From Dyella sp. EPa41 (GTDB lineage: Bacteria > Pseudomonadota > Gammaproteobacteria > Xanthomonadales > Rhodanobacteraceae): DNA of 64,000 nucleotides. Below the pieces are notes generated by a model. The model saw only the letters and a list, made by a program, of their open reading frames with translations, was not told the origin of the DNA and did no database searches. The stretch spans positions 62,001 through 126,000 of the forward strand of contig NZ_BCPR01000003.1 in NCBI RefSeq assembly GCF_016586165.1. Reading direction: 5' to 3'. Below, in pieces: positions 46,268-61,482 of this stretch (positions are counted from its first letter, which is position 1; each line of letters begins with the position of its first letter). The position numbers and the translations under genes are program-made.

Positions 46268-46354
46268 GCCCGGATGGCGAAACTGGTAGACGCAAGGGAC
46301 TTAAAATCCCTCAGCCGCAAGGCTATGCGGGTTCGATCCCCGCTCCGGGCACTA
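46268..46354 (+). tRNA. tRNA-Leu (anticodon TAA), 3' part replaced by the integrated element
   Basis: 87 bases: acceptor GCCCGGA/TCCGGGC, anticodon stem GGGAC.../...TCCC with loop containing TAA, long variable arm AGCC-GCAA-GGCT, T arm GCGGGTTCGATCCCCGC. The last three bases are CTA instead of the CCA encoded by the other tRNAs here. The 3' part is duplicated at 61425-61482, where the end reads CACCA. The gene is therefore the attachment site, with a 3' end supplied by the element; CCA must be repaired after transcription. Confidence 0.93.
46295..46352 (+). repeat. attL: left attachment repeat in tRNA-Leu
   Basis: This 58-base segment is repeated at 61425-61482. The first 19 bases (anticodon arm) and the last 29 bases (46324-46352, T arm and acceptor) are identical. 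Between them the variable arm differs at four positions but still forms a hairpin (AGCC-GCAA-GGCT here, AACC-GAAA-GGTT at attR). Confidence 0.93.
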
Positions 46355-46401
46355 AGAAAATCAATCACTTACTGGCTTTTTCCCGGATTGCAGGAGCGTC
46401 T

Positions 46402-46424
46402 GTGTCCGCACGGTGTCCGGGTTT
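46402..46424. promoter_or_regulatory. Left integrase arm-type repeats
   Basis: GTGTCCG occurs twice (46402-46408 and 46413-46419). The second is part of GGTGTCCGGGTTT, which recurs exactly at 61277-61289 at the other end of the element. This is expected of arm-type binding sites for the integrase. Confidence 0.6.
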
Positions 46425-46779
46425 AGGTGGGCTGTAGCTCTGAGCCGCAATGCTTGCACTTCAGTGCGGCCTCGCGGACTTGCTCGGCGCAGAACGGGCA
46501 GAGTTTGTAACCGTCGACTTTTTCCCCAGCCTCCAGGCGCTCGGCCCTGTTCCGGGAAAAAACCGCGATCAACAGACCGATCAGAAGCGATGAGTAGCCC
46601 ATGAGCCCCATCGCCATGCCGTTGCCGCCGGTCGCAAATGATCCCAGGACCACGAGCGCGAAGCCACCCGCCAAGCACCCAAGAAAGAACAAAAAGCCCG
46701 AAAACCCGCGTCGCGACGCAATGCCGGCGACTATCAGGTCGCAGAACAAGAACAGAATCAGCCCCCAAATCGGCTCCAT
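46423..46779 (-). CDS. Membrane protein with C-terminal zinc ribbon
   Basis: 118 residues. Three hydrophobic segments (IWGLILFLFCDLIVAGIA, GFLFFLGCLAGGFALVVLGSF, MAMGLMGYSSLLIGLLIAVF) are followed by a cytoplasmic zinc ribbon, CPFCAEQVREAALKCKHCGSEL. GGGGGAG precedes the ATG at 46779. It is the last gene before attL, a place where elements often carry accessory genes; a role in host or phage exclusion would be a guess. The function is unknown. The stop lies on the left arm repeat. Confidence 0.75.
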   Translation of the reverse strand: MEPIWGLILFLFCDLIVAGIASRRGFSGFLFFLGCLAGGFALVVLGSFATGGNGMAMGLMGYSSLLIGLLIAVFSRNRAERLEAGEKVDGYKLCPFCAEQVREAALKCKHCGSELQPT

Positions 46780-46845
46780 TGCACACTCCCCCTTCCCGTA
46801 GTGGTGCGCAATTTCTAGCACACTAGATCTGCAACGGCTGCGTGC

Positions 46846-47538
46846 CTACGCCACCCCACGCAGGAACTGCGACAGCGGCATAACTTCGGCAATGCGCTGG
46901 CTGTCGAGCCCATACACCGCCAGCGCCGCCGCCAAGATCAAGTCATCATGAGCCCCTTCGCGGGCGCCAAAAGTGGCATTTCCGACTGCGCTGTAACCAA
47001 CGCGGAAATCGAGTAGCTCCCTGCGGAAGGTCTTTGCGAGAGGAAGGCTCTCGGGCATAGACAACTTGCCCGTGTGCATCAGCGCCTGCAGACGGCTCAC
47101 TAGGTTGATCTTCGGCACACTGTGCCCGCCGTTGCCGTTAGGACCTTCCTGGCCGTTAAAGATGATCGTCACGGGCTTAATTCGCGGTACGCGATGGTCA
47201 CGGAAGATGTCGTAGACCGCGCGACCGACGCCCGTATAGTCGATCCAGACATCTGGGTCATGCTCGGCAATCTGCTGACGCGCCAAAATGCGGTTCACAC
47301 GCTGCGCCTGCGCCGGGTAGGGCTCACCCAGCGGCGCCTGCTCGAGCAAGCGCAGGATGTAAGACGGCCGCTCGTTGCGCAGTGCTTCGCGCGCTTCGGG
47401 AACCCGCGCTGTGAATACGTGCGCACCGATTTCGGGCGCTATCTTTTCGATCACAGCAATGGACGTGGGGTCTTTGGACTGGCCAAGGTCGACGCCTACG
47501 GCGACGGTGCGGCGGTAATCAAGTAACGGGTGATTCAT
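46846..47538 (-). CDS. Terminase large subunit, nuclease half
   Basis: 230 residues. VAVGVDLGQSKDPTSIAVIE (Asp17) and HDDLILAAALAVYGL (Asp198, Asp199) are the RNase H-like metal-binding motifs of the terminase nuclease domain, with the central WIDYTGVGRAVYDIF segment. It cuts concatemeric DNA during packaging. It begins in a 4-bp overlap (ATGA at 47538-47535) with the ATPase half, so the two are made together as separate chains. The combined length (486) equals a normal single-chain large terminase. Confidence 0.85.
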   Translation of the reverse strand: MNHPLLDYRRTVAVGVDLGQSKDPTSIAVIEKIAPEIGAHVFTARVPEAREALRNERPSYILRLLEQAPLGEPYPAQAQRVNRILARQQIAEHDPDVWIDYTGVGRAVYDIFRDHRVPRIKPVTIIFNGQEGPNGNGGHSVPKINLVSRLQALMHTGKLSMPESLPLAKTFRRELLDFRVGYSAVGNATFGAREGAHDDLILAAALAVYGLDSQRIAEVMPLSQFLRGVA

Positions 47539-48305
47539 GACCAGGCTTCCAGAGTGTTATCAACCATGGCGTCGACCAGCTCGGAGCTGAAGAAGGCCTC
47601 GTCGGTGTCGGTGAATTCGCACAGGTATTCAGTGCGGAACTGCCATTCGCTCATTCCCTCGCGTTCTTCGGCGAGAAATTCAGGAGTGATGTGCGGGCAA
47701 TCAAATGCCGTGATCGTCGTGCGATCCCAGCCCGCACTGGTCTCCCAGGCGTCATAGAACCAACCGCGGCGACCGTACGGGGTCGTCAGGGCGATGAGCT
47801 GGCCATCTGTAGACGCCGCCAGCATGGGCCGCAGCGCGGCATAAACAGTGTCGGCCACACGTGCGGCCTCGTCGATGATCACGGCGCGCGGGGCGCTGAA
47901 GCCGCGGATGTTCGCGTCGTTGTCGCCGGGGAGCGCGAAGAGGTGCGAGCCATTGGCCAGCACCAGTTCGGTTTCGTTGTCGCGCGTGATGCGCGGCACG
48001 TCCTCTAGTCGCCGATAGGTACTCACCACCTTCTGAAACAGCAACTTTGACTGGCGCAGTGTCGGCGCAATGATCAGATAAGTGCCCGGCGCGTACAGCA
48101 TGCCGTGCGACGCCTTCGCGCCTACAGTGGTCGACTTGCCGGCCTGACGGTTACATAGGATGAGATGGCGGCGTGCCTCGGAGCGCATCACGTGCTCCTG
48201 CCATGGCGCCGGCTCTACCGGGTCCCCGTTGGCGTCACGCACGCCCTGGCGGAACACGTTCGCGGGATCAGCCGCGCGGGCAAAGTCGGAAGCGGCGGCG
48301 CTCAC
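47535..48305 (-). CDS. Terminase large subunit, ATPase half
   Basis: 256 residues from GTG. Walker A-like CNRQAGKST (51-59), AYLIIAPT-type motif (TYLIIAPTLRQSKLLF) and Walker B AVIIDEAARV (141-150, Asp145-Glu146), followed by the coupling motif LIALTTPYGRRGWFYDAW. It powers DNA translocation into a capsid. The reading frame ends cleanly at the domain border, where the nuclease gene begins. The start overlaps the gp10-like stop (GTGA). No portal protein gene is present in the element. Confidence 0.88.
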   Translation of the reverse strand: MSAAASDFARAADPANVFRQGVRDANGDPVEPAPWQEHVMRSEARRHLILCNRQAGKSTTVGAKASHGMLYAPGTYLIIAPTLRQSKLLFQKVVSTYRRLEDVPRITRDNETELVLANGSHLFALPGDNDANIRGFSAPRAVIIDEAARVADTVYAALRPMLAASTDGQLIALTTPYGRRGWFYDAWETSAGWDRTTITAFDCPHITPEFLAEEREGMSEWQFRTEYLCEFTDTDEAFFSSELVDAMVDNTLEAWS

Positions 48306-48754
48306 TTCGGCAGTTCCTGGATCGCGTTGTCGATGTACTGGCCGAACTCAGCGATGGACACGCGGACCATGCCTTGTGGGGCCTGAACACCGGAATGGCC
48401 CCATTCGAGAGCAGCGGCGTAGGGCAGGTTGTTGGTGATGTAAATGTCTTGCGTGCCATCAGCATGAGTTAGGACTGTCAGGCCTCGGGCAATGGTTTCG
48501 CCGCCATCTTTGTCGATGACTTCCGTTGTGCTGATGTCCGGATCCACGAGCGACACATTCCAGTTTGCACGGAAGCGCCCGCCCACATAGCCCGCCGGTG
48601 GCTTGGACTTCCACAGGTCAGGATTGCCTACCGGGGAGCGGAGCACGATAGAGCGGAGCAAGTCGAGGGTGGCCCTTCGTACTACCTGCGTCGGGGCTGC
48701 CTTAGCCTTTTCGACGAAAGCACGGATATCTAGCGCGAAGGTTTGGCTACTCAT
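48302..48754 (-). CDS. HK97 gp10-like head-tail/tail completion protein
   Basis: 150 residues. LDLLRSIVLRSPVGNPDLWKSKPPAGYVGGRFRANWNVSL, then YITNNLPYAAALEWGHSGVQAPQGMVRVSIAEF, is the pattern of HK97 gp10/minor tail completion proteins (residues VxTGxLRxSW and YaxxlExG region). These link the tail to the head in siphophages. It overlaps its neighbours by 4 bp on both sides. Its place between small- and large-terminase genes is unusual. Confidence 0.75.
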   Translation of the reverse strand: MSSQTFALDIRAFVEKAKAAPTQVVRRATLDLLRSIVLRSPVGNPDLWKSKPPAGYVGGRFRANWNVSLVDPDISTTEVIDKDGGETIARGLTVLTHADGTQDIYITNNLPYAAALEWGHSGVQAPQGMVRVSIAEFGQYIDNAIQELPK

Positions 48755-49335
48755 ACCAGCGTGGCCTCGATCAAGAGAGGTTCGCGCTCTGGCGGCTGCA
48801 TGATGGCTGCCTCTGCAGTCGCGATGGCGCGGGCGCCCGCTGCGATGGCTTCAGGGCCCAGGGGGCGTAGCTCGCGCACGAGTGAGGTGCGGATGTGGTG
48901 CCATTGGGGCGACTGCACCAGGTTGATCGTGTTGTGGTTGATGGTGATTGCGGAGCCAAGCTCGCCGAGCAGCTTGGCGATACGCTCGGATACCTTGCTA
49001 GCCGCCTCGAGTGCCGCTCGCTCGCCGGCCCAGTCCTTGATTGAGGCCGCATTGTCGGCGTTCCGGTAGAGACGCGCGCGTTGCCACGAGAAGCTGTCGA
49101 GCAGCGACTTACCCTCGACCTCGCGGATTTGGGCCAGCTCTTCGTCGGAGCGACACCCGCGCGTCTTCAGCTTGGCGATCAGGTCCACGTCCATGTGGTT
49201 TGTGCGGTGCCGTGACAGTGCATCCGGCGCCAGGCCATAGCGTAGGCTCAGTACACGCGCGGCGATGCCGTTGGCCAGGCCGATCTCGACCGTCGCGCGG
49301 TCTGGACTTTCACAGACAGTGCAGGGGCGGGCCAT
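48751..49335 (-). CDS. Small-terminase-like DNA-binding protein
   Basis: 194 residues. The N-terminus carries a CTVCES motif and a helix-turn-helix-like stretch (ATVEIGLANGIAARVLSLRYGLAPDALSRHRTNHM), followed by a long helical part and a tail with EREPLLIEATLV. Position before the terminase large genes and length fit a terminase small subunit, but the motif is weak. It is separated from the tape measure stop by 3 bp and overlaps the gp10-like gene. Confidence 0.5.
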   Translation of the reverse strand: MARPCTVCESPDRATVEIGLANGIAARVLSLRYGLAPDALSRHRTNHMDVDLIAKLKTRGCRSDEELAQIREVEGKSLLDSFSWQRARLYRNADNAASIKDWAGERAALEAASKVSERIAKLLGELGSAITINHNTINLVQSPQWHHIRTSLVRELRPLGPEAIAAGARAIATAEAAIMQPPEREPLLIEATLV

Positions 49336-49338
49336 CGC

Positions 49339-51972
49339 TTACGCTCCCGCCACGCCGACGCCGCGCTGGCGGATGCCGTAGCGATGTTCATGTGCCTTGG
49401 CGACCTTGCCGCCACGAAGAACACTGCTTGCGACGCGGTCTTCCGCAGCATCAAGAATGACTTTGATGAAGCGGTCGCCATTGGGGCCCGTGGTCTGCGA
49501 GGCGGTCGCATTGACGGCCTGACCGTTGTTCTCGACGCTCACGTATACGTCTCCGCCGCCACCTCCCGCGGCCTGCACCCCCAGCTTTCCGTTCGCCCCG
49601 CGCGTGAGCGGTAGGATGGCCTCCGGGCCCGCTTCACCCATCACGCCTGCGCCCTTGGCGAAGGCGAACATGGTCGGGCGATCGACAATCTGACCCGAGA
49701 AGCTGGATAGCGACGCGGTGTCATAGACACCGCCGTTGGCGTTGGCGATGACAGAATCGATGAAGCTGTTCGCCTGCATCTGTGCCAACGCCGCGGGGTA
49801 CATCGAGCCGAATATCGCCTGCAGTGCCTGCGATTCCAGGGCTCGCGCCTGGATGCGCAGCATGTCAGTCAAGATCGAGTCGGCCAGGTCCTTGAAGCTA
49901 GACTTTCCCGTCACAGCAAACTGCGCGATCGAATCGGCCATGCCATCGAAGGCGTTGGTGAACAGATTGTGTGTCTGTCCGGCCACGTTGGCGGCGGAGT
50001 CTTCGAAATCGGCAATGGCCCCTCGGGCGCCGTTTCGCCAATCTGCCATGGCGGCCAGCTCGCGCTGGTTCCCATCAATGATCTGTTGGACACGCTTATC
50101 CTGCGCGTCCTTGATGATCTTGAGCTCGCCGTCGTAGGTCTCCTGCGTCATGGCCTTGCCTTTGTCGGCAAAGTCACGATTGAGCTGCTCGATCCTCTTA
50201 TTTGTGTCGTCCTGGACCTGCAGGATGTCGCGTTGCTGGGCCGCCTCGCGAGCCCCCATACCAATGGATGCGATCTGCAGGTCAATCTGCTTTTGCTTGA
50301 CGCGCAGGCTTTCTTCCATCGCCGACTTGTAATTGGCGATCGATACGACGTTTTGCGCCTGCTGCGTCAGCTCCTTCTTATAGCCCTCGATTTCCTTGTT
50401 GATCGCCTCCGTCATCTGTTTCTTGGCAAGGATGGTTGCGTCGAAATCGTCGGAGGGTGACTTCTTGGCCCACGATGCGCGGGCGGCCATGTCGGCGGCA
50501 GCTTCCTTCGCCATGATCGTGTTGACCATGTCCGTGTCGCCCTTGGCGAGTGCGGCAGCAATGGCCTTATTTGCGGCGTTGTGGATATCGATCAGCGCGT
50601 CCTGGCGCTTCTGTTCCTCGGACTCATACTGCTTGGTGTATTTGTTGAGCAGCGACTGTCCCGCTACGCCGGCGTCCTGGATGCGCTGCGCTTCAGCCTT
50701 GGCCTCTGCCGCGGTCATCTTGTCGGAGAGCTGCTTCTGCAGGTCCTGCAGCTTGGTTTCATCGGCCGGCGACCAGCTCGCGAAGGTGAAGGGGTTGCCG
50801 CTCTTGGCGGCCTCCTTCTTCCCCATGAGATCGTAGATCTGCGTCTGCATGTCGGCCGTGCCGGCGATGAGCGACGCGCCCGTCTTGAACTCTTGCCAGT
50901 AGCCTGAGGCTGCAACCTTTACGTCATCCCATGCCTTGGCCAGGCCGGTCACCTGCGAGTTCATCTCGTCGAGGCGAGGACCGATGGCATCGTGGAAGGC
51001 ATCGGCGGCCACCTGCGCGGCTCGCTGGGCGTCTCCCTGCTTCTCCAGGGCATCGATCTGCTCGTAAACCTTGAGCGTCAGGAAGTGATATTGCTCGTTC
51101 GCTTTGACGGCGCTCGCGGCGGTGCCGTCGAACATTTCGGTCACCGCGGCGGCGGCCTTCTCTGCGCTGTCGCCGGTGAGCTTGGACACGTCCATGGCAG
51201 CCCTTCCCAGCGACAGGAACGCATCGCTGCTCACCTTGCCGTTACCGGCCAGCGCGATGAGGATGTCGTTGGCCTTGCCCAGATCTGCGTTACTGCCCGC
51301 CACCTGGCTGGCGAACTTGGACATGCCGCCGGAGGCTACGCCGACGAAGTCGCCGGTCTTGGCTAGCGCGGCGTTGAACTCGTTCTGGACCTTGGAGCCA
51401 TCGTTTGCGGCGATGGCGAACGCGGCAAAAGGGGCGCCCGCGGCGGCAATGGCGGCGGCGACACCGCCGAAGCCGGTCGCCAGCAGACCGCTCGAGCTGA
51501 CCAGAGTGGCAAAGGACTGCTGAAACCGGCCCCACTGGCCGGTGGCGAGATCTTTCGCGAGGTAGCCAAGCTCGCGCCTGGCGTTCGCGTTGTTGAGGCT
51601 GAAGCTATGGACCGACTCCGTTGCGCTGGCGATCCGGGCACGGTTCGCTTCAATTGCGCTATTGAGGGCAGTGAAGTCGTCCGCAGTCAGTAGGCCCGAC
51701 TTCTTGAACTGAGCCAGCTTGCTCTGCTGCTTGTCCAACTGGTCGAGCTTGGCAATGGTGGGGTCGATCTGACCGGCCAACTTGGCGAGTTCGATGCGCT
51801 GGGCACTGAGGGCCGAGTTATCGAATGACCTGGCGGCCTTGGCGGCAGTCGCAGACAGCTTCTCCGATGAGGTGGCGGCCTTGTCGCTGGCTGCCGCCAT
51901 CTTGTCCAGGTCATCAGCGGCCTTGCTGACGCCGTCCGTCGTGACGCGTACGCCGAGCGTTGCCAGGTCCAT
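49339..51972 (-). CDS. Phage tail tape measure protein
   Basis: 877 residues. Coiled-coil N-terminal region (TRDGV..KAADDLDKMAAASDKAATSSEKLSATAAKAARSF), a hydrophobic central segment (LVSSSGLLATGFGGVAAAIAAAGAPFAAFAIA), long Lys/Glu/Gln-rich helices, and the lambda gpH-type C-terminal region (FADSILTDMLRIQARALESQALQAIFGSM-like, FAFAKGAGVMGEAGPEAILPLTRGANGKLGVQAAGGGG). At about 1.5 A per residue it would specify a tail near 130 nm (inference). The start at 51972 (MDLATLGVRV) was preferred; the longer ORF is Pro/Arg-rich noise. Confidence 0.92.
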   Translation of the reverse strand: MDLATLGVRVTTDGVSKAADDLDKMAAASDKAATSSEKLSATAAKAARSFDNSALSAQRIELAKLAGQIDPTIAKLDQLDKQQSKLAQFKKSGLLTADDFTALNSAIEANRARIASATESVHSFSLNNANARRELGYLAKDLATGQWGRFQQSFATLVSSSGLLATGFGGVAAAIAAAGAPFAAFAIAANDGSKVQNEFNAALAKTGDFVGVASGGMSKFASQVAGSNADLGKANDILIALAGNGKVSSDAFLSLGRAAMDVSKLTGDSAEKAAAAVTEMFDGTAASAVKANEQYHFLTLKVYEQIDALEKQGDAQRAAQVAADAFHDAIGPRLDEMNSQVTGLAKAWDDVKVAASGYWQEFKTGASLIAGTADMQTQIYDLMGKKEAAKSGNPFTFASWSPADETKLQDLQKQLSDKMTAAEAKAEAQRIQDAGVAGQSLLNKYTKQYESEEQKRQDALIDIHNAANKAIAAALAKGDTDMVNTIMAKEAAADMAARASWAKKSPSDDFDATILAKKQMTEAINKEIEGYKKELTQQAQNVVSIANYKSAMEESLRVKQKQIDLQIASIGMGAREAAQQRDILQVQDDTNKRIEQLNRDFADKGKAMTQETYDGELKIIKDAQDKRVQQIIDGNQRELAAMADWRNGARGAIADFEDSAANVAGQTHNLFTNAFDGMADSIAQFAVTGKSSFKDLADSILTDMLRIQARALESQALQAIFGSMYPAALAQMQANSFIDSVIANANGGVYDTASLSSFSGQIVDRPTMFAFAKGAGVMGEAGPEAILPLTRGANGKLGVQAAGGGGGDVYVSVENNGQAVNATASQTTGPNGDRFIKVILDAAEDRVASSVLRGGKVAKAHEHRYGIRQRGVGVAGA

Positions 51973-51973: not shown

Positions 51974-52708
51974 TCAGGCCGTCTCCGCCGGCTCGTCGGC
52001 GGCCTCGGTGGCCTGGGCGGGTAGGGCCTCGATACCGCTTCCGATGTGGGCGAAGGGCGCGAATTCTGCCGAGTTGAGATTGGCGTCCTGTGCGATGGTT
52101 CGGGCCGCATTGGCCAGGCCATCGCGGGCGTGGCGAAGGGCCTCGTCTAGGGTGGCCAGCTCCTTCACTTCGCCGGGGTTTCGTTGGGCGGCGACCTCAT
52201 TGAGCATGCGCGCCTTCACGGACTCGGGAATGCCGGTGAGGGTGGTGGGCAACCGCGCGACTGCATCGGCCACTCGCGGATCGGCCTGGATAGCCTTGAG
52301 CGCGTCTGCCGTGCTCGCGGAGCGCAGGGTGGCCGCCAGGGCCAGGTCGATGGCGACGGTGGAGAAATCGCCCTGGGCATAGGGCTTGATCTCCAGAAGC
52401 GCATTGCGGCGCTCATCGATGTCCGTGGCCTCCCTATGCAGGTTGTTGTGCGCGGTGGCTATGCGCGATAGCTGGGCCAAGGCCGCTTTCTTGATGTCCT
52501 CGCGCTTGGCGGAGTCTGAGAGACGCTGGTCCTCATCGATGCCTATGCGCAGCCGGTCATAGAGACTGACGGCGTGTGCCGCGCGCTGCACCATTTGGTG
52601 CACTTCATTAAGCGCGCCGTCCGTGGGCTCGCCGTGCGGCCACAGGGCAAGCCTCCGCTGGTTGCCGCGGATGGTTGCGCTGATGAAGGGTGAACTTGAT
52701 TGGGACAT
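51974..52708 (-). CDS. Unknown phage protein upstream of the tape measure gene
   Basis: 244 residues from MSQSSSPFISATIRG. Mostly alpha-helical with no motif I recognise (EVHQMVQRAAHAVSLYDRLRIGIDEDQRLSDSAKREDIKKAALAQL). It ends one base before the tape measure ATG and is thus in the same operon. By position it could be a tail chaperone or a scaffold, but no frameshift site typical of G/GT chaperones was seen. A longer start at 52771 is possible. Confidence 0.7.
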   Translation of the reverse strand: MSQSSSPFISATIRGNQRRLALWPHGEPTDGALNEVHQMVQRAAHAVSLYDRLRIGIDEDQRLSDSAKREDIKKAALAQLSRIATAHNNLHREATDIDERRNALLEIKPYAQGDFSTVAIDLALAATLRSASTADALKAIQADPRVADAVARLPTTLTGIPESVKARMLNEVAAQRNPGEVKELATLDEALRHARDGLANAARTIAQDANLNSAEFAPFAHIGSGIEALPAQATEAADEPAETA

Positions 52709-52958
52709 GGTGGCCTCGGGGTCGAATTGGTTAGCGCGAAAGGGCGCCGCGATTGGAATGTTCGCGGACATGCCACCCGGACACCAGAGAAGCAAAGAGA
52801 AGAAATGCGACAAGTGAAGGACATTTTTCACTTTGCATAGGGATAACGAATCCCTAGATGGCCAAAGAGGTGGCCTGAAACAGTGGTTCTATGGCGCAAA
52901 AGGCCTGGAAAACTGGCGCGAATGGGCATGCGCTACCCCCAACCCGCCCGCTCCTTGC

Positions 52959-53056
52959 TGTTCCACTGTTCCACTGGTGTTCCGCGTATTCGTGTTCCGC
53001 GGAACAGACGTGTTCCACCACGGGGGGGGTATATACCCCCCCGTGGAACGGAACAC
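52959..53056. other. Candidate replication origin: TGTTCC iterons and large palindrome
   Basis: TGTTCC or its complement occurs six times or more within 98 bases (52959, 52967, 52978, 52993 as the palindrome TGTTCCGCGGAACA, 53011, and inverted at 53047-53054). At 53018-53046 CCACGGGGGGGG, TATATA and CCCCCCCGTGG form an inverted repeat with an AT core. It lies immediately 3' of the primase/helicase gene, as in P4-like satellites, where the primase binds iterons beside its gene. No T run follows the stem, so a simple terminator is less likely. Confidence 0.5.
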
Positions 53057-53057
53057 C

Positions 53058-55019
53058 CTAAGCGGCATGTTTCAGCCATCGATGAATGGTGGTGGCCGGA
53101 ACGCCGGTGTGGTCGGCAATGGCTCGGATGGACAGGCCGTCGCGATGCAGCCCCACAACTCGATCACGCTTGCTCGTGTCTGCAATCGCGCCTGCCGCAT
53201 CGTGCAGTGCGAGCGTGGTTTCCTTCACTGGCTCGCCGTCGTCATCGATGGATTCCACCTCGATCTCTACTTTCGACAACATCACGGTTGGTGGCTTGCG
53301 CCAGTCTTTGGCCTTGTCGCCGGATTTCAGTTCAAGGCCGCCATCTTTTGCCTTCAGATAGAAATCCGAATCCATGCTGGCGCCGAAGTTACTGTTACCG
53401 CGTCCGCGGTCCTGTGCTCCCGGGTCGTTGCCGGTGTGGTGCACGGCCAGGACGGTACAGTTCCATTCTTGGCGCAGCTGGTCGCACGCTGAAACAAACT
53501 TGCCCATGTCGTCGGTCGCGTTCTCATTCGCGCCGTTCATGGCGCGCGCTACCGTGTCGATCACGATCATGGCGGGGGTGACGCCGGTGTAGGTGCGCAG
53601 TTCCTCGGCCGTTTCTTTGAGAATGGATAGCGTGCTGGCAATGTTGAGCTGGTCGCACAGAAAGGGCATGCCCGACGCAATGAACAACGGGGCGCCGTCA
53701 ACAGTGACGCCGGTGTGTTTCTCCCATCCGTCGATGCGCTTACGCAATCCGCGCTGGCCCTCGCCGGCGAGATAGAACACGGCGCCTGGCTTCACTTCGC
53801 GCCCGTACCAAGCTGTACCGGTGGCGATCCGGCAGGCCCAATCGACAGCGAGGAAGCTTTTGCACGCACCGGGCTTGGCGATCAGCGCGGCCAGCGTGTC
53901 GCGCACCAGGTAGTCCCGAATAAGCCAGTCGGTCGCCTTGCGTTCGATCTTGTCTGCGCGGGTCAGCGTAAAGAGCCGACGAACGTTGTTGCCTGTTGCA
54001 TCATTCGCTGCCTGCTTGCCTGCAACAGCCACGCCCGGCACAGGCGCGGGCGCTTCCCATGCACCGCTCGCCAGCTTCGCCAGCGAGCCCTCAAACGCAC
54101 GCCGTAGTTCCGCGTCATCCATGCGCCGCGTCCACCTTCCGCGGTCACGCTCCGCAACAAGCAACGCCCATGCGGTGTCTGCGTCCATGTCGCCACGGTG
54201 CACATCGCGCGCCCGGCGTCCACTCAGTGCGAGTAGGTCGCCATGCCTACCCTCATCCACCACGACGGCGCCGGCGGGCTGTGACGGCGCTTGCGTGGGC
54301 TTCTGCGCGAGAGCTGGCATATCGGCCAGCAACTCGCCCAGGGATAGCGGCTTGCCGTCCAGCAGGTAATGCGAGGCGCCGGTCAGCGGCAGGTAAAGCG
54401 GTTGTTCCGGGCGGTCGCACGACGCGTCGAAAATCAGCGGGTCATAGCCGTCTGCCACCAAGGCATCACTGATTCGCTTCTGTACGGCCGCCGTTGCCGC
54501 CACAAGCTCGGCGCGCGGTGCCGGCAGGTCCAGCTCAAGGATGACCCGGCAACGCGGCGAAGCGGGCGTGTGGCTCGACGTGGTGAAGACCAGGCCGGAA
54601 AAACGCTGCAGGTGCTGCACCAGTGCGGCGAATGACTGCGGCGTCAGGGACTGGTCAACGTCCAGGCCAATGAACCGCCGCGGATGTGCACAGGACGCGC
54701 AGCGGTGATGCTTGCCGATAGCGCGCTGTTTAGATCCGCCATCGCGGTGTGATGCGTCATCGGGCGCGATGGCGCACGGGCCGGCAATCCATCGGCCGCC
54801 CTTCTCCGTGCCACGGTCGTCCAGGATGGCGTCACGAAAAGCGGTGAAGTCGGGAGCGAAGCGCTGTTCGGGGGTGTTGTCGCGCTCGCCATAGCCGCGG
54901 CTGTACAACACTTGCAAACGATTTCCGCCAGCGGTAGCGTGGACGTGCGACTCGTCACGCATGTTCTCTAGCTTCGCCTCGCCCGCCAGCGAGGCGTTGC
55001 TGTTTTGGGGGTTCGTCAT
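53058..55019 (-). CDS. Primase/RepA-like helicase of the element
   Basis: 653 residues. An N-terminal part with primase-like sequence (RRFIGLDVDQSLTPQSFAALVQHL; GLVFTTSSHTPASPRCRVILELD) precedes an AAA_25/RepA-type ATPase. Its Walker A is AKPGACKS (381-388), followed by FLAVDWACRIATGTAWYGREVKPGAVFYLAGEGQ, PAMIVIDTVARAMNGANEN (Walker B) and VLAVHHTGND. A C-terminal homeodomain-like HTH (GLSIRAIADHTGVPATTIHRWLKH) could bind the nearby repeats. The Walker A has Cys386 where Gly is nearly invariant. Start at 55019 overlaps the upstream gene by 1 bp. It should drive element replication. Confidence 0.85.
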   Translation of the reverse strand: MTNPQNSNASLAGEAKLENMRDESHVHATAGGNRLQVLYSRGYGERDNTPEQRFAPDFTAFRDAILDDRGTEKGGRWIAGPCAIAPDDASHRDGGSKQRAIGKHHRCASCAHPRRFIGLDVDQSLTPQSFAALVQHLQRFSGLVFTTSSHTPASPRCRVILELDLPAPRAELVAATAAVQKRISDALVADGYDPLIFDASCDRPEQPLYLPLTGASHYLLDGKPLSLGELLADMPALAQKPTQAPSQPAGAVVVDEGRHGDLLALSGRRARDVHRGDMDADTAWALLVAERDRGRWTRRMDDAELRRAFEGSLAKLASGAWEAPAPVPGVAVAGKQAANDATGNNVRRLFTLTRADKIERKATDWLIRDYLVRDTLAALIAKPGACKSFLAVDWACRIATGTAWYGREVKPGAVFYLAGEGQRGLRKRIDGWEKHTGVTVDGAPLFIASGMPFLCDQLNIASTLSILKETAEELRTYTGVTPAMIVIDTVARAMNGANENATDDMGKFVSACDQLRQEWNCTVLAVHHTGNDPGAQDRGRGNSNFGASMDSDFYLKAKDGGLELKSGDKAKDWRKPPTVMLSKVEIEVESIDDDGEPVKETTLALHDAAGAIADTSKRDRVVGLHRDGLSIRAIADHTGVPATTIHRWLKHAA

Positions 55020-55645
55020 TATTTGCTGCCTCCATGCGGCAGGCTGCGCTGCAGATACCAGCCCTCGCGTTCGTCGATCGGCGCGTCGAGCAATTCGAGA
55101 ATGTCCTGTGCTTCGCGGCGGGCACCCTTACACGTATTCCAAGCTTCGGAGTGATCACCCTGCGCGGGACTAAAGGGCTTGTGCGCGTGGCGGTGCAAAA
55201 GCTGGCAAGCCAGGTCGGTGCGGGTTTCGATGCCGCGCGATAGGCGAACAAGGGAAGCGCGAAGCTCGGGCGTCATGAGCGCATCGAGTCCCAGGTCTTG
55301 CCGCGCGCTGGTGTAGGCGTCGAGCACAAGCGCAGCCCAGCCAGCGTCAGCCATCCCGTCGCGGCCGTCCATCTTGTCGACGGCGATATCCGCTTGTGCG
55401 TCTGCCAGAGCCGGATCGAGTTCAACCATCCGGCGCATCACGTCGCGCAGATGCGGGAGCGTCCACTGGCGGAAGTCGTCGGTGGTCAGCAACCCGACTT
55501 CGATTTGCCAGTCAAAAAACGCGCCGATGGCCAACAGCAGGACGTCCACGTCACCGCTTTCCTGGGCGGCGTCCACAGCATCCATTAGGCGCCAGGCCTC
55601 GTCTTCTTGCTCCTGCGTAAAGGTGATTTCTGTCGGAGTAGTCAT
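55019..55645 (-). CDS. Unknown protein in the AlpA-primase operon
   Basis: 208 residues, acidic N-terminus (MTTPTEITFTQEQEDEAWRLMDAVDAAQESGDVDVLLL), mostly helical, no recognised motif. It overlaps the primase start by one base and the upstream gene by 4 bp, so it is translated with both. The tight coupling suggests a role in replication or its control. Confidence 0.7.
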   Translation of the reverse strand: MTTPTEITFTQEQEDEAWRLMDAVDAAQESGDVDVLLLAIGAFFDWQIEVGLLTTDDFRQWTLPHLRDVMRRMVELDPALADAQADIAVDKMDGRDGMADAGWAALVLDAYTSARQDLGLDALMTPELRASLVRLSRGIETRTDLACQLLHRHAHKPFSPAQGDHSEAWNTCKGARREAQDILELLDAPIDEREGWYLQRSLPHGGSK

Positions 55646-56280
55646 GCGGCGGCCTCCAAGTCGGCAACGGTTTTGATGCTGATCGAGTCGCGCGTCACTT
55701 CGGCGAGCAGCAGGCGGCCGCCAACAGCCACGGCAACGGGCAGTGAGCGCAGGAGCTCGACCTGATCGCGCGCGATCGTTGTCATGCGTTCGGCTGAGTC
55801 CGGCGGTGCCGGCAATTCCGCGTAACCCGGGTTCGGGCTAGCCATCCACGAAGCCACACGGGCGACGCGGGAAGCCTTTTCGCCGTGGTCGCATTTCCAG
55901 ACGGCGGCCTGCATGCGGTTGGTTGCGCGTGACCAGCCGACCATGACGATTTCGGCACCAGGGAAGGCATCGACGCCTTGCGGCTTGGCGACTGCCGCCA
56001 TGAAGACCTCAAGATTCTTCTCCAGGAGGCTAGGCATACGCTCAGCCATGGCGTCGTAGCCATCGAGCACGGCCCGGTTTAGATCGCTGGCCAGCCAGTT
56101 GAAGAAGTTCATCTCGCCGCGAGCGGCCAGCACCACGTTTGCGTGAGGCAACGCGAGGAGCTTGGATCCATGCGCGCGACGAGCGAGGTCCGCGGCGTTG
56201 CTGGATGAGATCGGCGCCATGCAGGTGTCGACGCTGACCAGCGCGCGATCTTCTGCAACGAAACAGTTGAGAACGCTCAT
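55642..56280 (-). CDS. Unknown protein, possibly Ntn-hydrolase-like
   Basis: 212 residues from MSVLNCFVAEDRALVSVDTCMAP. The alternating beta-strand start, the SVDTC segment, the conserved-looking KLLALPHANVVLAARGEMNFFNWLASDL and the mid region with VMVGWSRATNRMQAAVWKCDHGEKASRV resemble proteasome/HslV-type Ntn-hydrolase folds found as hypothetical phage proteins; this is a shape impression only. The start follows the J-fragment stop in a 4-bp overlap. Confidence 0.55.
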   Translation of the reverse strand: MSVLNCFVAEDRALVSVDTCMAPISSSNAADLARRAHGSKLLALPHANVVLAARGEMNFFNWLASDLNRAVLDGYDAMAERMPSLLEKNLEVFMAAVAKPQGVDAFPGAEIVMVGWSRATNRMQAAVWKCDHGEKASRVARVASWMASPNPGYAELPAPPDSAERMTTIARDQVELLRSLPVAVAVGGRLLLAEVTRDSISIKTVADLEAAA

Positions 56281-56681
56281 GCCTGACCCTCCGAGACAAT
56301 CAACGGGTCGCCAACGACAGAGCCGCCGATCATGATGGCGGCACTGGCTACAGCTGCGTAGCTGCCGAATAGGCTTGCTCCAATGGCACCGGAAGCAACA
56401 CCGCTGCTCAGCGCGACAAGCGCCACCATGGCAACCGTGCGCAGGATCTTCCCGCCATTGCCACCTTGGGGCACACCTACGACGTGGACGGTCTGCCCAG
56501 CACGGGGCCGGACCTTGTTCCACATGGCGTAGGGCACTGGGTGGCCGCCAATGGACACGTTGCAGCTAGGGCTGGCCTGCTCGCCCAGCATTTCGGCGAT
56601 GGTCTGACCTGATGGCATCTCGGAAGTTATCCAGTCACCGCTCAGCGGGTGCGCTTTCGCAAGGACGGTACAGGTGCTCAT
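56277..56681 (-). CDS. Free-standing N-terminal domain of a tail-tip attachment protein J
   Basis: 134 residues. SGQTIAEML, then CNVSIGGHPVPYAMWNKVRPRAGQTVHVVGVPQGGNGGKILRTVAMVALVALSSGVASG follows the first 150 residues of siphophage J-type tip proteins (beta-grasp domain, W-x2-VRPK-x-G-T, VP-x-GG-x-GGK-x2-LR, hydrophobic stretch). Full J proteins exceed 1000 residues. Here the chain ends after the hydrophobic part and the next gene begins in a normal ATGA overlap, so it is a real short gene, not an open fragment. It might cap or compete at a helper tail tip (inference). Confidence 0.6.
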   Translation of the reverse strand: MSTCTVLAKAHPLSGDWITSEMPSGQTIAEMLGEQASPSCNVSIGGHPVPYAMWNKVRPRAGQTVHVVGVPQGGNGGKILRTVAMVALVALSSGVASGAIGASLFGSYAAVASAAIMIGGSVVGDPLIVSEGQA

Positions 56682-56869
56682 GGGACCACCACTGCGCGGC
56701 GCTCAATCATGATGCGGCGGAAACCATCGGTGGCGCGTTCGATGTTCGCCAGCACCTGGGCATTGCCGGTGCCGTGCTCGGAGACATGGTCTGCAAGCGC
56801 GCCAATGCACAAGCAGGCGGCCAGGAGATCGTCATCAACGTCGTGTATGGAGCGATTGGTGGGAGTCAT
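56678..56869 (-). CDS. Small unknown protein
   Basis: 63 residues: helical, MTPTNRSIHDVDDDLLAACLCIGALADHV, then GNAQVLANIERATDGFRRIMIERRAVVVP. Both ends overlap neighbours by 4 bp (ATGA), which supports translation. No function recognised. Confidence 0.6.
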   Translation of the reverse strand: MTPTNRSIHDVDDDLLAACLCIGALADHVSEHGTGNAQVLANIERATDGFRRIMIERRAVVVP

Positions 56870-57045
56870 GCGGTTGCTCCCTGGCGTGCCGTGACGACCT
56901 CCAAGAGCGCTTGGTGCGCGGCTGCCTTCATCATTTCGGCAGATAGTTCATGTATGCGGGAATAGAACGTCGCGCGTTCCTCCTCGCTCATGTCGACAAA
57001 CAGCCTCACAAACGATTCTTCGCTCAACTGGGCCGATGCGCTCAC
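56866..57045 (-). CDS. Small unknown protein with GTG start
   Basis: 59 residues (SASAQLSEESFVRLFVDMSEEERATFYSRIHELSAEMMKAAAHQALLEVV). A GTGA overlap with the AlpA stop at 57042-57045 marks the start; the longer frame to 57162 would run inside alpA. It is an amphipathic helical protein with no recognised family. Confidence 0.6.
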   Translation of the reverse strand: MSASAQLSEESFVRLFVDMSEEERATFYSRIHELSAEMMKAAAHQALLEVVTARQGATA

Positions 57046-57266
57046 GCCGCCTCCTGTGCGCGATGACGCTGCGCTTCGATCCAAGCATTCACGTCTGCGC
57101 GGTGGTAGTAGCAACGCGATCCGATTTTGATTTTCACCGGACCGTTCCTCAGCCACGCCCACTTGTCGAGCGTGCGGGTGGTCACCTTAAGCTCCTTTGC
57201 GAGCTCTTCGCGCGACACGTAGTCGGCAAGTACCGGGACGGAGGGTAGGGAAGTAACGATGCTCAT
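57042..57266 (-). CDS. AlpA/excisionase-type DNA-binding protein
   Basis: 74 residues. ADYVSREELAKELKVTTRTLDKWAWLRNGPVKIKIGSRCYYHRADVNAWIEAQ is a MerR-like winged helix of the AlpA/excisionase family (HTH_17), with the wing G-S-R-x-Y-Y and the W-I-E tail. In P4-like elements AlpA activates or regulates excision. It is the first gene of the long minus-strand operon, with GGAG seven bases before the ATG, and it is preceded by two terminators. Confidence 0.85.
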   Translation of the reverse strand: MSIVTSLPSVPVLADYVSREELAKELKVTTRTLDKWAWLRNGPVKIKIGSRCYYHRADVNAWIEAQRHRAQEAA

Positions 57267-57518: not shown

Positions 57519-57827
57519 TTACCTACGCTTCTTTTTTGCTTCGTACAGGGCCAAGCGCCCGGCAGTAGGTCCCTCCATGGTTTGGGCATGACCACTTATC
57601 GCCTTGGCTGTATTTCGCTGCGGCGTTGACCAGTCCTCTGATCCGTGAATCGCCGCGTAGAGCGCGGCCTTCTCATAGAGCTGCTTGCCCATGAACCGCT
57701 TCGGACGCAGGCCGTAGGCGAGGGCGTTCTTTCGGAACTGGCTGTCGGACACGCCGCAGTAGTGCGCGGCTTCGATGACGGTCAGCCAGTCCTTGCCGGC
57801 GAGGTTGATCTGCTCAGTGGAGGACAT
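57519..57827 (-). CDS. Excisionase-like HTH protein
   Basis: 102 residues. DWLTVIEAAHYCGVSDSQFRKNALAYGLRPKRFMGKQLYEKAALYAAI reads as a MerR-like HTH, similar to helix-turn-helix proteins of phage immunity regions. The tail is basic (GRLALYEAKKKRR). It is divergent from the gene at 57869 with a 41-bp gap, so it may repress that gene. It does not belong to the alpA operon because a 252-bp leader separates them. Confidence 0.65.
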   Translation of the reverse strand: MSSTEQINLAGKDWLTVIEAAHYCGVSDSQFRKNALAYGLRPKRFMGKQLYEKAALYAAIHGSEDWSTPQRNTAKAISGHAQTMEGPTAGRLALYEAKKKRR

Positions 57828-59047: not shown

Positions 59048-59052
59048 ATATC

Positions 59053-59304
59053 TCAACTACTGCTTCGGGATGAATGAGCCGCTTTTCTGTAGCTGTCTGC
59101 CCAGTCCTCAACTTCAGATTTCTTCCACGTCTTCACCTTGCCCAGCGGTAGCGGCTTGGGGAATCCCGGCTTGCACGCGATGGTTTCGAGGAACGTCCGA
59201 CGCGTGATGCCGCCAAGATAGGCAGCGCACGCATCGGCTGACAGCCAGCGGTCGCCGGAAGCGAAGGCGGCAAAGAGGGTGATGGGATCGGTTTCCGCGC
59301 TCAT
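59053..59304 (-). CDS. Excisionase-like DNA-binding protein
   Basis: 83 residues. GDRWLSADACAAYLGGITRRTFLETIACKPGFPKPLPLGKVKTWKKSEVEDWADSYR has the AlpA/excisionase layout (HTH, then G-x3-W-K-x2-E-V-x2-W). It is last in a unit of four genes that starts at 59845. As it is the regulator nearest the integrase it may be the excisionase proper. Confidence 0.75.
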   Translation of the reverse strand: MSAETDPITLFAAFASGDRWLSADACAAYLGGITRRTFLETIACKPGFPKPLPLGKVKTWKKSEVEDWADSYRKAAHSSRSSS

Positions 59305-59396
59305 TCGACTACCTCATTCTCCCGATCGGCCTCGCGACGCAGGCGCTCCATGCGAGCAATCCAGTCCTCGAAGAACTCATCGAGTTCGCGGCTCAT
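59301..59396 (-). CDS. Very short protein between two overlapping genes
   Basis: 31 residues: MSRELDEFFEDWIARMERLRREADRENEVVE. Its start and stop form ATGA overlaps with both neighbours, and the sequence is a highly charged amphipathic helix. Both points support real translation, though the product may only couple its neighbours. Confidence 0.5.
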   Translation of the reverse strand: MSRELDEFFEDWIARMERLRREADRENEVVE

Positions 59397-59563: not shown

Positions 59564-59566
59564 GGC

Positions 59567-59845: not shown

Positions 59846-59914
59846 TGCTGCTCTCCTTCATAGAGCGGTTGTGGAAGTCGTCGGTGCCTGGGTTGCCGCC
59901 CAGGCGCCGGCGCG

Positions 59915-61273
59915 TTATTTCGCCTTTGCGGCGCCTCCCTTGCGGGAATTCTTCGGTTCGCAGAGCGCCCGCAACAGTTCGAGCGCCTCGCGCTTCTGCT
60001 TGAGGTAATCACCGCGGTCGTAGTGCCTTGCTTGGACGCCGCCAAGGCCATGGGACTGCAGCTGGGCGCGGACCTCGAGCGAGACGTTGCGCTCGCCCAG
60101 CCTCGTCTCGACAGTGCGCCGGATAACGCCAGGGGTGATGATCCGTGGAATCTCGCCCGCTTCAACCATTGGCTCAGACGCGCGCTTCATGGCGTCATCC
60201 AGCACTGCGGGCGTGACGGGCTGCTTTCCGTCCGTGACGCTGCAGAGATAAGAGCCATTCGCGCCGGCCATCACGGCAATGGCTTCAATAGCCTCGGGCA
60301 GTAAAGGAAGGATGTGCTCTCGCGCCACTGACCGGCGGCCCTTTGCGTCCCAAAGCGTAATTGTCTTGGAGGCATTGTCGTAGTCGGGGCGTGTCAGGCG
60401 GCACAGCTGCTCGCGACGCTGCCCGCCTGTCAGAAGATGCAGGCGGAGTAGGGCGCCATATGCGTCGTCCATGGCGCTGATGCGCTTCCAATAGGCGGCC
60501 AGCTGGGATTCCGAAAGAGTTAGCTCTTCTTGCTTGGCTTTTCGCGCCGCGTCGGGCGTGACTGGGGGGCGTGACACCCGTAGGTCGTCTAATGGGTTGA
60601 AGCGCACATTGAAGTCGCTGTACGCATGACCACGCGCATCGATCCTGGCCCGCTTCGCCGCGTTGAAGGCTGTGCGCAGATACGAAGCAAGCTTCTCCGG
60701 ATCGCGCTTCATGCCCGCCTTGGTCATCTTGTGGAAGACAGGCATGACGGCGTCGACCGTCACGTCCGCAACGGGCAGGGCGGCGATCTTGGGGAAGGGC
60801 GCGGCCACCGCTCGCTCGAAAAGAGCCTCCACCTGCTCAGCCGAAGCTTTGCCATGAGCCCGCATGTCGGACACGTAAGCGCGGACCAGTGCGGCCAAGG
60901 TGTGCTCTTCGCGTGCCTTGCGCGCCGCTTCCGCAGCTTTGGCGCTTGCTTTGGCTGCGCGCTCATCTGCCAACGGATCCTTGCCGGAGAGCACGCTACT
61001 CCGCAGGTCAGCTCCAGCGCGTCGCGCCAGGGCAATCGTCATGCCGCCCTGGCCCCGCTTGCCATAGGCCCCGATCGTCTTGCGCCGCTCTGCCCCGCAC
61101 GAGTAGTAGTTCAGGACAAAGGAAACTGCTCCGTTCTTGGTGACGCGGACACCGAAGCCGCGGGGCGCATCCTTGTGGCTGTCATAGAACACACGGTGCC
61201 GTGACGCCTGTTCTGCGACCTTCTCAGCGATAAAATCGTCCGTGAGTAGGTACTTGGTCCCTTGAGCCTTCAT
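59915..61273 (-). CDS. P4-type tyrosine integrase
   Basis: 452 residues. The N-terminal DUF4102-type arm-binding domain (GFGVRVTKNGAVSFVLNYYSCGAERRKTIGAYG) is followed by a core-binding domain and the catalytic domain with TGGQRREQLCRLTRPDY (first Arg), ITPGVIRRTVETRL (second Arg; a Gly stands where the box-I His is usual), QSHGLGGVQARHYDRGDYL (His and Tyr nucleophile). It integrates the element into tRNA-Leu. It begins 151 bp from attR, and its 5' end touches an arm-type repeat (61277), which suggests autoregulation by binding. Confidence 0.95.
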   Translation of the reverse strand: MKAQGTKYLLTDDFIAEKVAEQASRHRVFYDSHKDAPRGFGVRVTKNGAVSFVLNYYSCGAERRKTIGAYGKRGQGGMTIALARRAGADLRSSVLSGKDPLADERAAKASAKAAEAARKAREEHTLAALVRAYVSDMRAHGKASAEQVEALFERAVAAPFPKIAALPVADVTVDAVMPVFHKMTKAGMKRDPEKLASYLRTAFNAAKRARIDARGHAYSDFNVRFNPLDDLRVSRPPVTPDAARKAKQEELTLSESQLAAYWKRISAMDDAYGALLRLHLLTGGQRREQLCRLTRPDYDNASKTITLWDAKGRRSVAREHILPLLPEAIEAIAVMAGANGSYLCSVTDGKQPVTPAVLDDAMKRASEPMVEAGEIPRIITPGVIRRTVETRLGERNVSLEVRAQLQSHGLGGVQARHYDRGDYLKQKREALELLRALCEPKNSRKGGAAKAK

Positions 61274-61276
61274 TGT

Positions 61277-61418
61277 GGTGTCCGGGTTTCGTGTCCGAGA
61301 GTTGGCGCGTAATCAGTGTCTCTCAGGTTCCTCTCGAATCCCTCATATGTCAAGAAAAATGGCTTAAAACAAGGAAATTGTATGGCGGACACGAGAAGTG
61401 AAGGGACGTTGAGAGACA
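61277..61418. promoter_or_regulatory. Right integrase arm region
   Basis: GGTGTCCGGGTTT (61277-61289) is identical to the left-end repeat. TCGTGTCCG (61289-61297) has an inverted copy at 61386-61394, and TGTCTCTCA (61317-61325) has an inverted copy at 61410-61418. The interleaved order of the two inverted pairs is unusual. Together they look like arm-type and accessory sites of the attachment complex and overlap the integrase promoter. Confidence 0.6.
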
Positions 61419-61424
61419 TTCAAA

Positions 61425-61482
61425 AGGGACTTAAAATCCCTCAACCGAAAGGTTATGCGGGTTCGATCCCCGCTCCGGGCAC
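61425..61482 (+). repeat. attR: right attachment repeat
   Basis: A partial tRNA-Leu copy from the anticodon arm to the acceptor, followed by CA, thus restoring the CCA of the pre-integration gene. The last 29 bases (61454-61482) are identical to attL. It lacks the 5' half of a tRNA and is not functional. Confidence 0.93.

Follow-up and report, generated by a model that had tools for sequence, protein, structure and literature searches.

A tRNA-integrated satellite-type element of Dyella encodes a two-gene large terminase and a tape measure protein without recognised portal or capsid genes

The stretch of DNA analysed here, hereafter the window, comprises 64,000 nucleotides of Dyella sp. EPa41 (contig NZ_BCPR01000003.1, positions 62,001 to 126,000 of the forward strand) and contains a satellite-type element of ~15.1 kb inserted in tRNA-Leu, whose genes include a large terminase (TerL) split into two open reading frames (ORFs) and a tape measure protein (TMP). 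The integration target, tRNA-Leu(taa) (46268-46352 in window coordinates, plus strand), is intact, and its 3' end (46294-46352) constitutes one copy of a 59-nt direct repeat whose second copy, 95% identical and assigned no strand, lies at 61424-61482; the next longest direct repeat listed between 45500 and 64000 measures 27 nt. With these two repeats as attachment (att) sites, the element proper extends from 46353 to 61482, and the start at 46324 proposed in an earlier interpretation of the letters alone (the sequence-only reading) falls inside the first att copy. Genes were called with our own codon-usage script together with the ORF list, and the element's ORFs were profiled against Pfam and PHROGs (E values in brackets). 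All genes called in the element are on the minus strand, from a tyrosine integrase (59915-61273; Arm-DNA-bind_3, 2e-10; phrog_1, 4e-24), which we take to be of the P4 type, down to a zinc-ribbon protein at 46423. Neighbouring genes overlap by 1-4 bp at nine junctions between 46846 and 57266 and are separated by gaps above 57266, so that the tight overlaps initially described for the whole element hold for this lower part.

The large terminase, correctly recognised in the sequence-only reading and there treated as a single gene, is encoded by two genes that overlap by 4 bp, namely an ATPase half, TerA (47535-48305), and an RNase H-like nuclease half, TerN (46846-47538). The large terminase profile matched is phrog_7579 (1.4e-54), and both halves already have PHROGs families (phrog_7579 and phrog_27743). 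TerA aligns with solved phage TerL chains (4zni, E 2e-13; T4 gp17, E 9e-11) and carries RQAGKST and VIIDEA motifs, which we take to be Walker A and Walker B, respectively. TerN matches the solved TerL chains 5tge, 5m1q and 5m1f at E ~2e-8, with its C-terminal, HDD motif-containing stretch aligning significantly and the first acidic motif only below threshold. The same separation of ATPase and nuclease is found in four relatives described below (G006, G056, V1 and V2) and is widespread among uncultured viral contigs: collapsing 25 of 123 IMG/VR loci with either half on account of identical starts of the matched region left 98 loci, V1 and V2 among them, of which 86 have separate ORFs for both halves, the remaining 12 comprising two with one ORF, eight with the ATPase half only and two with the nuclease half only. 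In 15 of the 86 split loci, more than 300 nt lie between the TerA and TerN ORFs. We therefore reject a sequencing error as the origin of the split. Portal-like genes occur in several of the split-TerL contigs, recognised by PHROGs in L057 and by similarity to known or inferred portals in L065, L116 and L131, which argues that a split TerL also exists in phages. TerN found no match at E <= 1e-5 in 50,697 phage records, and a class-wide search of 369 genomes returned, besides the window's own copy, one weak match (8e-4); the isolated phages Riverbug and MMP17 were considered as further cases and rejected, as their TerL is a single ORF of 417 and 415 aa, respectively. The two-gene TerL, frequent in the uncultured phage contigs examined here, represents a natural split of a motor normally studied as a single chain.

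Two genes upstream of TerA lies a protein with a Cys-x-x-Cys motif and a helix-turn-helix (HTH)-like N-terminus (48751-49335), which we designate as small terminase (TerS)-like on the basis of its position and of homologs encoded just upstream of TerA both in elements that lack a TMP and in other contigs. Interspersed with these packaging genes are components of a phage tail. The TMP (49339-51972; Tape_meas_lam_C, 1.5e-25; phrog_24, 9e-123) most likely starts at 51972 rather than at 52122 and then comprises 877 aa, and between the TerS-like protein and TerA is encoded gp10 (48302-48754; phrog_169, 3e-47), a tail completion or Neck1 protein, presumably of the HK97 gp10/lambda Z type. A further tail-related piece, g09 (56277-56681), is short and resembles lambda I and the N-terminus of J (PF06805, 4.5e-5; phrog_31, 4e-11). 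No match at E <= 0.05 to portal, capsid, protease, tail-tube, holin or endolysin families was found among the called ORFs, the scan being confined to these and leaving uncalled, for example other-strand, ORFs outside. The profile scans and the repeat search thereby bear out what had been read from the letters regarding att repeats, integrase, AlpA-like regulators, primase/helicase, gp10, TMP and the short I/J-like piece, and the scans of called ORFs likewise uphold the central proposal, namely that the element is of the satellite type and encodes a packaging enzyme and a tail ruler itself, with no recognised portal or capsid.

To place the element among its relatives, we searched 297 related genomes, the window's own included, with TerA and TerN. 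TerA matches were found in nine genomes (four close and five distant) and TerN matches in ten (four close and six remnants). The five distant TerA matches (G077, G083, G229, G235 and G266) are open frames of 481-550 aa and probably ordinary full-length TerL proteins; they were left out of the family together with the TerN remnants (G012, G013, G016, G136, G168 and G203). In the five further genomes looked at, the TerN fragments (L050-L054) lie ~0.5-1.5 kb from tRNA genes and were probably left behind by earlier insertions of elements belonging to this family. The family thus defined has six members. Besides the window element, it comprises a copy in the same genus at the same tRNA-Leu, with 9.4 kb between its att copies (G006), a 9.7-kb copy at a tRNA-Val site (G056), a copy in Luteibacter lying 3.9 kb from tRNA-Ser, for which no att copy was found and the element ends were not located (G208), and two IMG/VR contigs, V1 (18.4 kb) and V2 (18.7 kb), that have the same packaging set as the window element.

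Integrase, TerS-like protein, TerA and TerN are constant in all six members, as are, upstream, a replication-type gene followed by a protein in the position of the window's g13; the replication gene is an AAA_25 primase/helicase or a BLAST relative thereof in five, and V2 has an unscanned 295-aa protein in its place. The five relatives thus share TerS, ATPase and nuclease with the window element, the ATPase gene being broken in one of them. Their TerS, TerA and TerN proteins are 58-84% identical to those of the window, and a tree of the three proteins unites the six members in one clade (99%) with V2 deepest (98%), relative to two outgroup contigs. In TerA trees, from which G208 was left out on account of its broken gene, the other five members are monophyletic (support 1.0, 84 sequences). 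Ratios of nonsynonymous to synonymous substitution rates (dN/dS) between the window and G006 are 0.12-0.26 across seven genes, and neither the phrog_12 portal nor the PF05065 capsid family has a match in the V1 and V2 records. The reduced gene content, the split terminase, purifying selection and a single descent of the packaging genes are therefore properties of the family. Separately, a high-GC contig (L063, 1155-8807) carries an integrase, small regulators, a TerS-like protein, TerA and TerN beside tRNA-Met, with no recognisable portal next to the terminase genes and no PF05065 match in the whole 51-kb record, and looks like another integrated satellite.

The tail cassette is distributed differently from the packaging genes, as only four of the six members (window, G208, V1 and V2) have a TMP, in each case accompanied by gp10. 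V1 carries a full lambda gpI (phrog_32, 7e-60) in the stretch corresponding to the window's g09. The V2 TMP is very divergent (16-21% identity), part of it resembling the TMP of the split-TerL contig L116 (36% over 170 aa), and is preceded, in the chaperone position, by a 101-aa protein with the PHROGs label tape measure, which we infer to be a tail chaperone. Between the window and V1, dN/dS is 0.28 for the TMP and 0.15 for gp10 (dS of 1.6 and 2.2, near saturation). Given these ratios and the absence of the TMP from two members, the tail cassette is optional, yet kept under selection.

The satellite TMPs measure 877 (window), 868 (V1), 823 (G208) and 749 aa (V2), compared with 927, 928, 925, 871 and 1096 aa for the phage copies of G184, G174, L196, L195 and G684, respectively; those of the window, V1 and G208 are thus 0-11% shorter than close phage TMPs. 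In an alignment with the G184 protein, ~50 residues near position 510 are missing from the window and V1 copies. TMP length scales with tail length at ~0.15 nm per residue, and the deficit would correspond to ~7 nm. The possible reset of tail length put forward in the sequence-only reading is thereby weakened, as a strong one is not supported by the TMP lengths (877 aa against 927, 928, 925 and 871 in the close phage TMPs) and the change predicted is small. Among 49 near-full-length TMP relatives picked by similarity and with uncorrected starts, 46 are longer than 877 aa (45 if L195 is counted with its 871-aa start). The three comparable satellite TMPs retain the N-terminal region and a C-terminal GEAG block, with the last ~75 residues varying. 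Given so modest a shortening, we think that the TMP acts less to alter tail length by a large amount than to support assembly and DNA delivery specific to the satellite.

The replication module lies upstream of the tail and packaging genes and consists of a primase/helicase with a C-terminal HTH (53058-55019; AAA_25, 1e-37) and a non-coding, origin-like gap (52709-53057, minus strand) that separates it from g13. Such a gap between the replication gene and g13 is present in all six members (261-476 nt). Within its first 140 nt, the window gap contains a long palindrome, with its core near 53029, and seven GGAACA iterons at ~52959-53055; any 6-mer is that frequent in 12 of 1000 Markov shuffles. 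The V1 gap has six copies of TGGACA (1 of 1000 shuffles). GGGACA recurs at similar places in G056 (five copies) and G006 (four copies), at frequencies reached in 82 and 172 of 1000 shuffles, respectively, while G208 and V2 display no iteron excess (603 and 1000 of 1000). A search for 8-10-nt words common to at least four of the six gaps found none. By analogy with P4, we suggest that the gap may be an iteron origin read by the C-terminal HTH of the primase.

The g13 ORF immediately upstream of the TMP (51974-52708) encodes a helical protein of 244 aa, and a helical-type protein of 224-260 aa occupies the same position in all six members. Sequence matches connect subsets of these proteins only (window-G056, 7e-5; window-V2, 3e-26; G006-G056; V1-G208), so that the V1 and G208 copies correspond to the window's by position. 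The AlphaFold model of g13 (pLDDT, the per-residue model confidence, of 80) is helical apart from two short N-terminal strands. We considered g13 as a hidden portal or capsid and rejected this, since the best Foldseek hits have E values of 0.23 (PDB) and 0.20 (BFVD) with none at E <= 0.001; the profile scans of the called ORFs had likewise yielded no portal or capsid, a result that would have spoken against the sequence-only reading. A candidate role as scaffold or capsid-size factor may be envisaged for g13.

The remaining genes comprise the small membrane-type protein with a C-terminal zinc ribbon at the end of the gene array (46423-46821; phrog_31852), whose start is uncertain, with codon usage preferring 46779; g11 (55019-55645), with no assigned function and conserved in G006 and V1; and g08 (56678-56869), a small protein with no assigned function and conserved in G006. 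Three AlpA/excisionase-like HTH proteins (phrog_66, 2e-10 and 1e-4; phrog_668, 1e-5) lie toward the integrase: an AlpA/excisionase-like protein (57042-57266), an excisionase-like protein (57519-57827) and an AlpA-like DNA-binding protein (59053-59304). The protein g10 (55642-56280), distinct from gp10, belongs to phrog_13702, a family labelled large terminase with another member at 8620-9240 of the Salinibacter plasmid contig L293; this label is open to doubt, since a complete TerA/TerN pair is encoded separately from these members.

Both genes flanking the insertion were found in 20 genomes of the genus and on one contig in 16, in 11 of which they are 1.0-1.7 kb apart. The distance is larger in the other five, amounting to 10.5 kb in G006, 14.1 kb in G013, 16.1 kb in the window, 45.6 kb in G008 and 93.4 kb in G002; tRNA-Leu(taa) is thus an integration hotspot, with inserts of different kinds (~9-92 kb) in 5 of 16 testable genomes, the window's included. 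Four sites besides those of the window and G006 were inspected (G002, G007, G008 and G013). G007 has an empty site, the G002 insert shares with the window element only one matching AlpA-like protein, and the G013 insert matches only the integrases of G208 and V2 (28-32%). G008 carries a full-looking prophage at tRNA-Leu, apparently contractile-tailed by its translations as read without profiles, that has no match to the window element's called proteins at E <= 1e-5. Derivation of the element from a prophage by simple deletion, an outcome that would have undercut the satellite proposal, is therefore rejected for this site.

A similar design is found on plasmids. TerA matched 17 of 72,556 plasmid records, of which four were inspected. 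Two complete circles from Salinibacter ruber, pSR11 (L290, 11.2 kb) and pSR14 (L291, 14.9 kb), carry a primase, a protein in the TerS position (profile match in pSR14 only, 5e-5), TerA, TerN and a helical-looking protein of 236-261 aa. Both also encode a TMP-like protein of 608-628 aa (pSR14, phrog_1535, 2.8e-10; pSR11, phrog_167, 8.7e-9), at values that coiled coils can also produce; the pSR14 protein has a C-terminal GEAG..E..MPL region in common with the window TMP (hhalign, 90.6%), and our TMP profile found no match in pSR11 or pSR14. Neither plasmid has an annotated capsid or portal, in gene tables that are incomplete and mostly read 'hypothetical'; the proteins scanned were 5 of 14 (pSR11) and 3 of 21 (pSR14) with PHROGs and five of each with Pfam. 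A third plasmid, pSR31 (L293, 31.6 kb; 5 of 44 proteins scanned), is circular and combines a primase-type gene and a split terminase, with two TerN copies and the phrog_13702-family protein mentioned above, without annotated capsid genes. All three are possible plasmid satellites. The Streptomyces virginiae plasmid unnamed2 (L292, 16.3 kb) carries a primase, an integrase, TerA and TerN and no annotated virion genes, with no TMP match among the four proteins scanned.

Candidate helpers emerged from a gp10 search of 197 genomes of the bacterial family, whose five matches are the window, G208 and lambda-like prophage regions in G174, G184 and G684. By PHROGs, the G184 region encodes a one-ORF TerL of 411 aa, portal, head morphogenesis, major head, terminator, tube, TMP and gp10, and the G174 region gpI and J; further chaperone-, M-, L- and K-like genes, named as in lambda, are presumed from gene order and similarity to L195. 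TMP identity is 49% between the window and G184 and 45% between G208 and G174, gp10 identity to the prophage copies is 50-57% for the window, V1 and G208 and 39-42% for V2, and the gpI proteins of V1 and G174 are 63% identical. The satellite TMPs do not form one clade, as the window copy groups with G184 (99%), V1 joins these two (100%) and G208 groups with G174 (76%). TMP, gp10 and gpI are thus homologous to those of G184/G174-type prophages, and judging by these sequence relationships, lambda-like prophages of the same bacterial family are likely the best helper candidates, none of them residing in a genome that carries the satellite. G184 has another type of terminase, as would suit a satellite equipped with a motor itself.

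With an integrase and att sites, its own replication gene and no full set of virion genes, the element has the makings of a phage satellite, and it differs from a complete or defective lambda-like prophage in having no recognised portal, head or tail-tube genes among its called ORFs and, at the sites inspected, no full prophage relative from which it would derive by simple deletion. P4 combines a P4-type integrase, AlpA, a primase and an iteron origin near the primase and takes P2 tails; phage-inducible chromosomal islands (PICIs) are defined by AlpA, primase and TerS without a TerL of their own. Helper-subversion genes of the sid/psu/delta type are typical of P4-like satellites, and PICI-like elements (PLEs) have a set comprising RepA_N, CapR and TcaP; none of these names turned up in our general PHROGs/Pfam scans, in which no dedicated P4 or PLE profiles were used. 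The window element resembles P4 in its P4-type integrase, AlpA, primase and iteron-like origin near the primase, and differs in having a terminase and a TMP. What it has in common with PICIs is its small size, its integrated state and the possession of an integrase, an AlpA-like regulator, a primase and a TerS-like protein, and it differs by its complete split TerL (TerA and TerN) and its TMP/gp10 cassette. In the passages of the literature cited here, P4 uses the P2 terminase, and the PICIs described use the helper's terminase or only their own TerS or Rpp (PMC10690885).

Satellites with more packaging genes of their own have been reported. According to the same passages, capsid-forming PICIs (cf-PICIs) encode TerS, TerL, capsid, portal, protease and connectors and borrow tails (PMC10690885); our element is likewise integrative, with its own TerL by profile and structure matches and its own TerS by position and homology only, but has among its called ORFs no recognised capsid, portal or protease and tail-interior proteins instead. 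The Streptomyces satellites MulchRoom/MiniFlayer, as outlined there, encode TerS, TerL, capsid and portal and no primase (PMC10690885), so that TerS and TerL are shared, whereas the primase and the absence of a recognised capsid or portal set our element apart. AH14b of Pseudomonas sp. ANT_H14 (16.8 kb) has an integrase, an AlpA-like regulator and a primase similar to that of P4 and borrows capsids; its authors report neither a terminase nor head-neck-tail genes in it (PMC4936722), so that the first three genes are shared and terminase and tail genes are the difference. Closest in the choice of a TMP are putative E. coli satellites targeted by Odn-like nucleases, a set of 224 assembled by similarity, of which those described have major capsid, decoration proteins, TMP and a baseplate component and lack a terminase (PMC10448857). 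They share with our element integration at tRNA genes and a TMP without most of the tail, and are otherwise nearly its mirror image, as ours has a terminase and no recognised capsid. In open-licence PubMed Central, with most subscription papers and nearly all preprints outside, we came across no description of a satellite that encodes both TerL and TMP but no capsid, nor of a two-gene TerL. The suggestion of a new type thus holds for the combination, unreported in the literature searched, and less so for the TMP, given the putative TMP-bearing E. coli satellites already in print (PMC10448857). The novelty lies in how the genes are combined and in the fact that this combination recurs; the kind to which the element belongs, 'phage satellite', is known.

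On balance, we consider it probable that the element is a phage satellite whose own terminase packs it into helper capsids and whose own TMP and completion protein enter helper tails. It would excise from the tRNA gene and replicate from its own iteron origin by its own primase/helicase, after which the TerS-like protein would mark element DNA, and the two-gene TerL would dock on the portal of a helper phage and fill helper capsids. During tail assembly, the satellite TMP and the gp10/Z-type protein (in four of six members), together with a full gpI in one, would replace or mix with those of the helper, and the helper's tube, tip and fibres would then be mounted on a satellite-specified inner tail. 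The helpers would be lambda-like siphophages like the prophages of the same bacterial family. That the element is mobilised, that its terminase docks on the portal of a helper and that its proteins enter tails is what we infer; no packaging site and no helper was identified for the element.

Several observations weigh against this interpretation. The TerS-like protein has no TerS profile match, and its fold search yields a best E of 1.0 (model pTM, the predicted fold-level score, of 0.39), so that of the original small-terminase assignment the position and the homologs upstream of TerL stand, without profile or fold match. TMP and gp10 are absent from G006 and G056, whose shared core genes are intact, and are thus dispensable for its basic cycle; gp10 of the three phages forms a group separate from the satellite copies in the tree of this protein (93%), which argues that gp10 was not freshly taken from these prophages, and the TMP of phage contig L195 is as short as those of the satellites (871 aa), so that short TMPs are not peculiar to satellites. 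In four of the six gaps, iterons are not in significant excess, the g13 proteins of V1 and G208 have no BLAST match to that of the window, and the role proposed for g13 has no profile or fold support. TerA of G208 is broken into two pieces, and this copy may therefore be dead. Finally, the element's own genome has no match to the phrog_12 portal or the PF05065 capsid, the two families searched genome-wide (each detected in 4 of 14 genomes used as controls), nor did a further TMP or gp10 turn up there, indicating that a helper of the G184/G174 type is not resident.

The main rival explanation, unlikely in our estimate yet the most serious, gives the tail genes the role of weapons. The surplus TMP, the completion protein and the gpI-like pieces would be cargo, placed in an accessory region that follows the primase, and would poison tails under assembly in competitors or in the helper, or else evade defences aimed at tails, with the terminase kept as the element's own. 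Prophages and satellites are known to direct defences at tail assembly, as exemplified in the passages cited by Tab, which recognises the TMP (PMC10884400), and by Tai, encoded in PICIs just downstream of the primase gene, much like the tail cassette here (PMC11364771); the optional nature of the cassette, missing in two of six members, and the satellite TMPs, which do not form one clade, would fit as well. Poisons of this kind are however hard to reconcile with TMPs near full length (749-877 aa) that keep the N-terminal region and GEAG block in the three comparable cases, with a window-V1 dN/dS of 0.28, with the constant company of gp10, expected of a working tail part, and with a cassette located between or beside the packaging genes in the same direction, except for one reversed ORF in V2. 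An improbable alternative has the satellite spreading by generalised transduction or by natural uptake of its DNA, its terminase and TMP being transient captures without a role in its own transfer. The patchiness of the tail cassette is compatible with this, as is the negative outcome for helper and packaging site, but TerS and the split terminase are found in all six members at the identities given above, and small circular plasmids again carry a split terminase next to a primase. Least probable, and already largely refuted, is a decayed or deleted prophage with random leftover genes, for although several tail and packaging genes are present and the TerN fragments in six further genomes show that decay happens, purifying selection acts on a reduced packaging set that is the same at tRNA-Leu and tRNA-Val sites, in G208 and in the contigs V1 and V2, the G008 prophage matches none of the element's called proteins and the G007 site is empty.

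Returning to a satellite that packs its own DNA and lines helper tails, we propose, more tentatively, a cross-phylum class of satellites that carry only two working parts of a phage, a packaging motor of separate ATPase and nuclease and a TMP, and leave shell and tube to their helpers. In such a class, if it exists, the satellite rather than the helper would decide what is packed and what lines the tail, its DNA would travel in a shell built by the helper and leave along an ejection path built by the satellite, and integrated forms in the family of Luteibacter would have plasmid counterparts in Salinibacter. The satellites in the literature searched, within the passages cited, take the whole virion (P4, PICI and PICMI) or only the tail (cf-PICI). 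In the family described here, if our interpretation is correct, shell, tube and tip would come from the helper, and the motor and the inside of the tail would be the satellite's own, which would make testable a TMP supplied in trans by a parasite, its control over the delivered DNA and the docking of a terminase on a foreign portal. Relatives in other bacteria suggest that the design recurs, so that elements of this kind may refashion the tails of the phages on which they depend.

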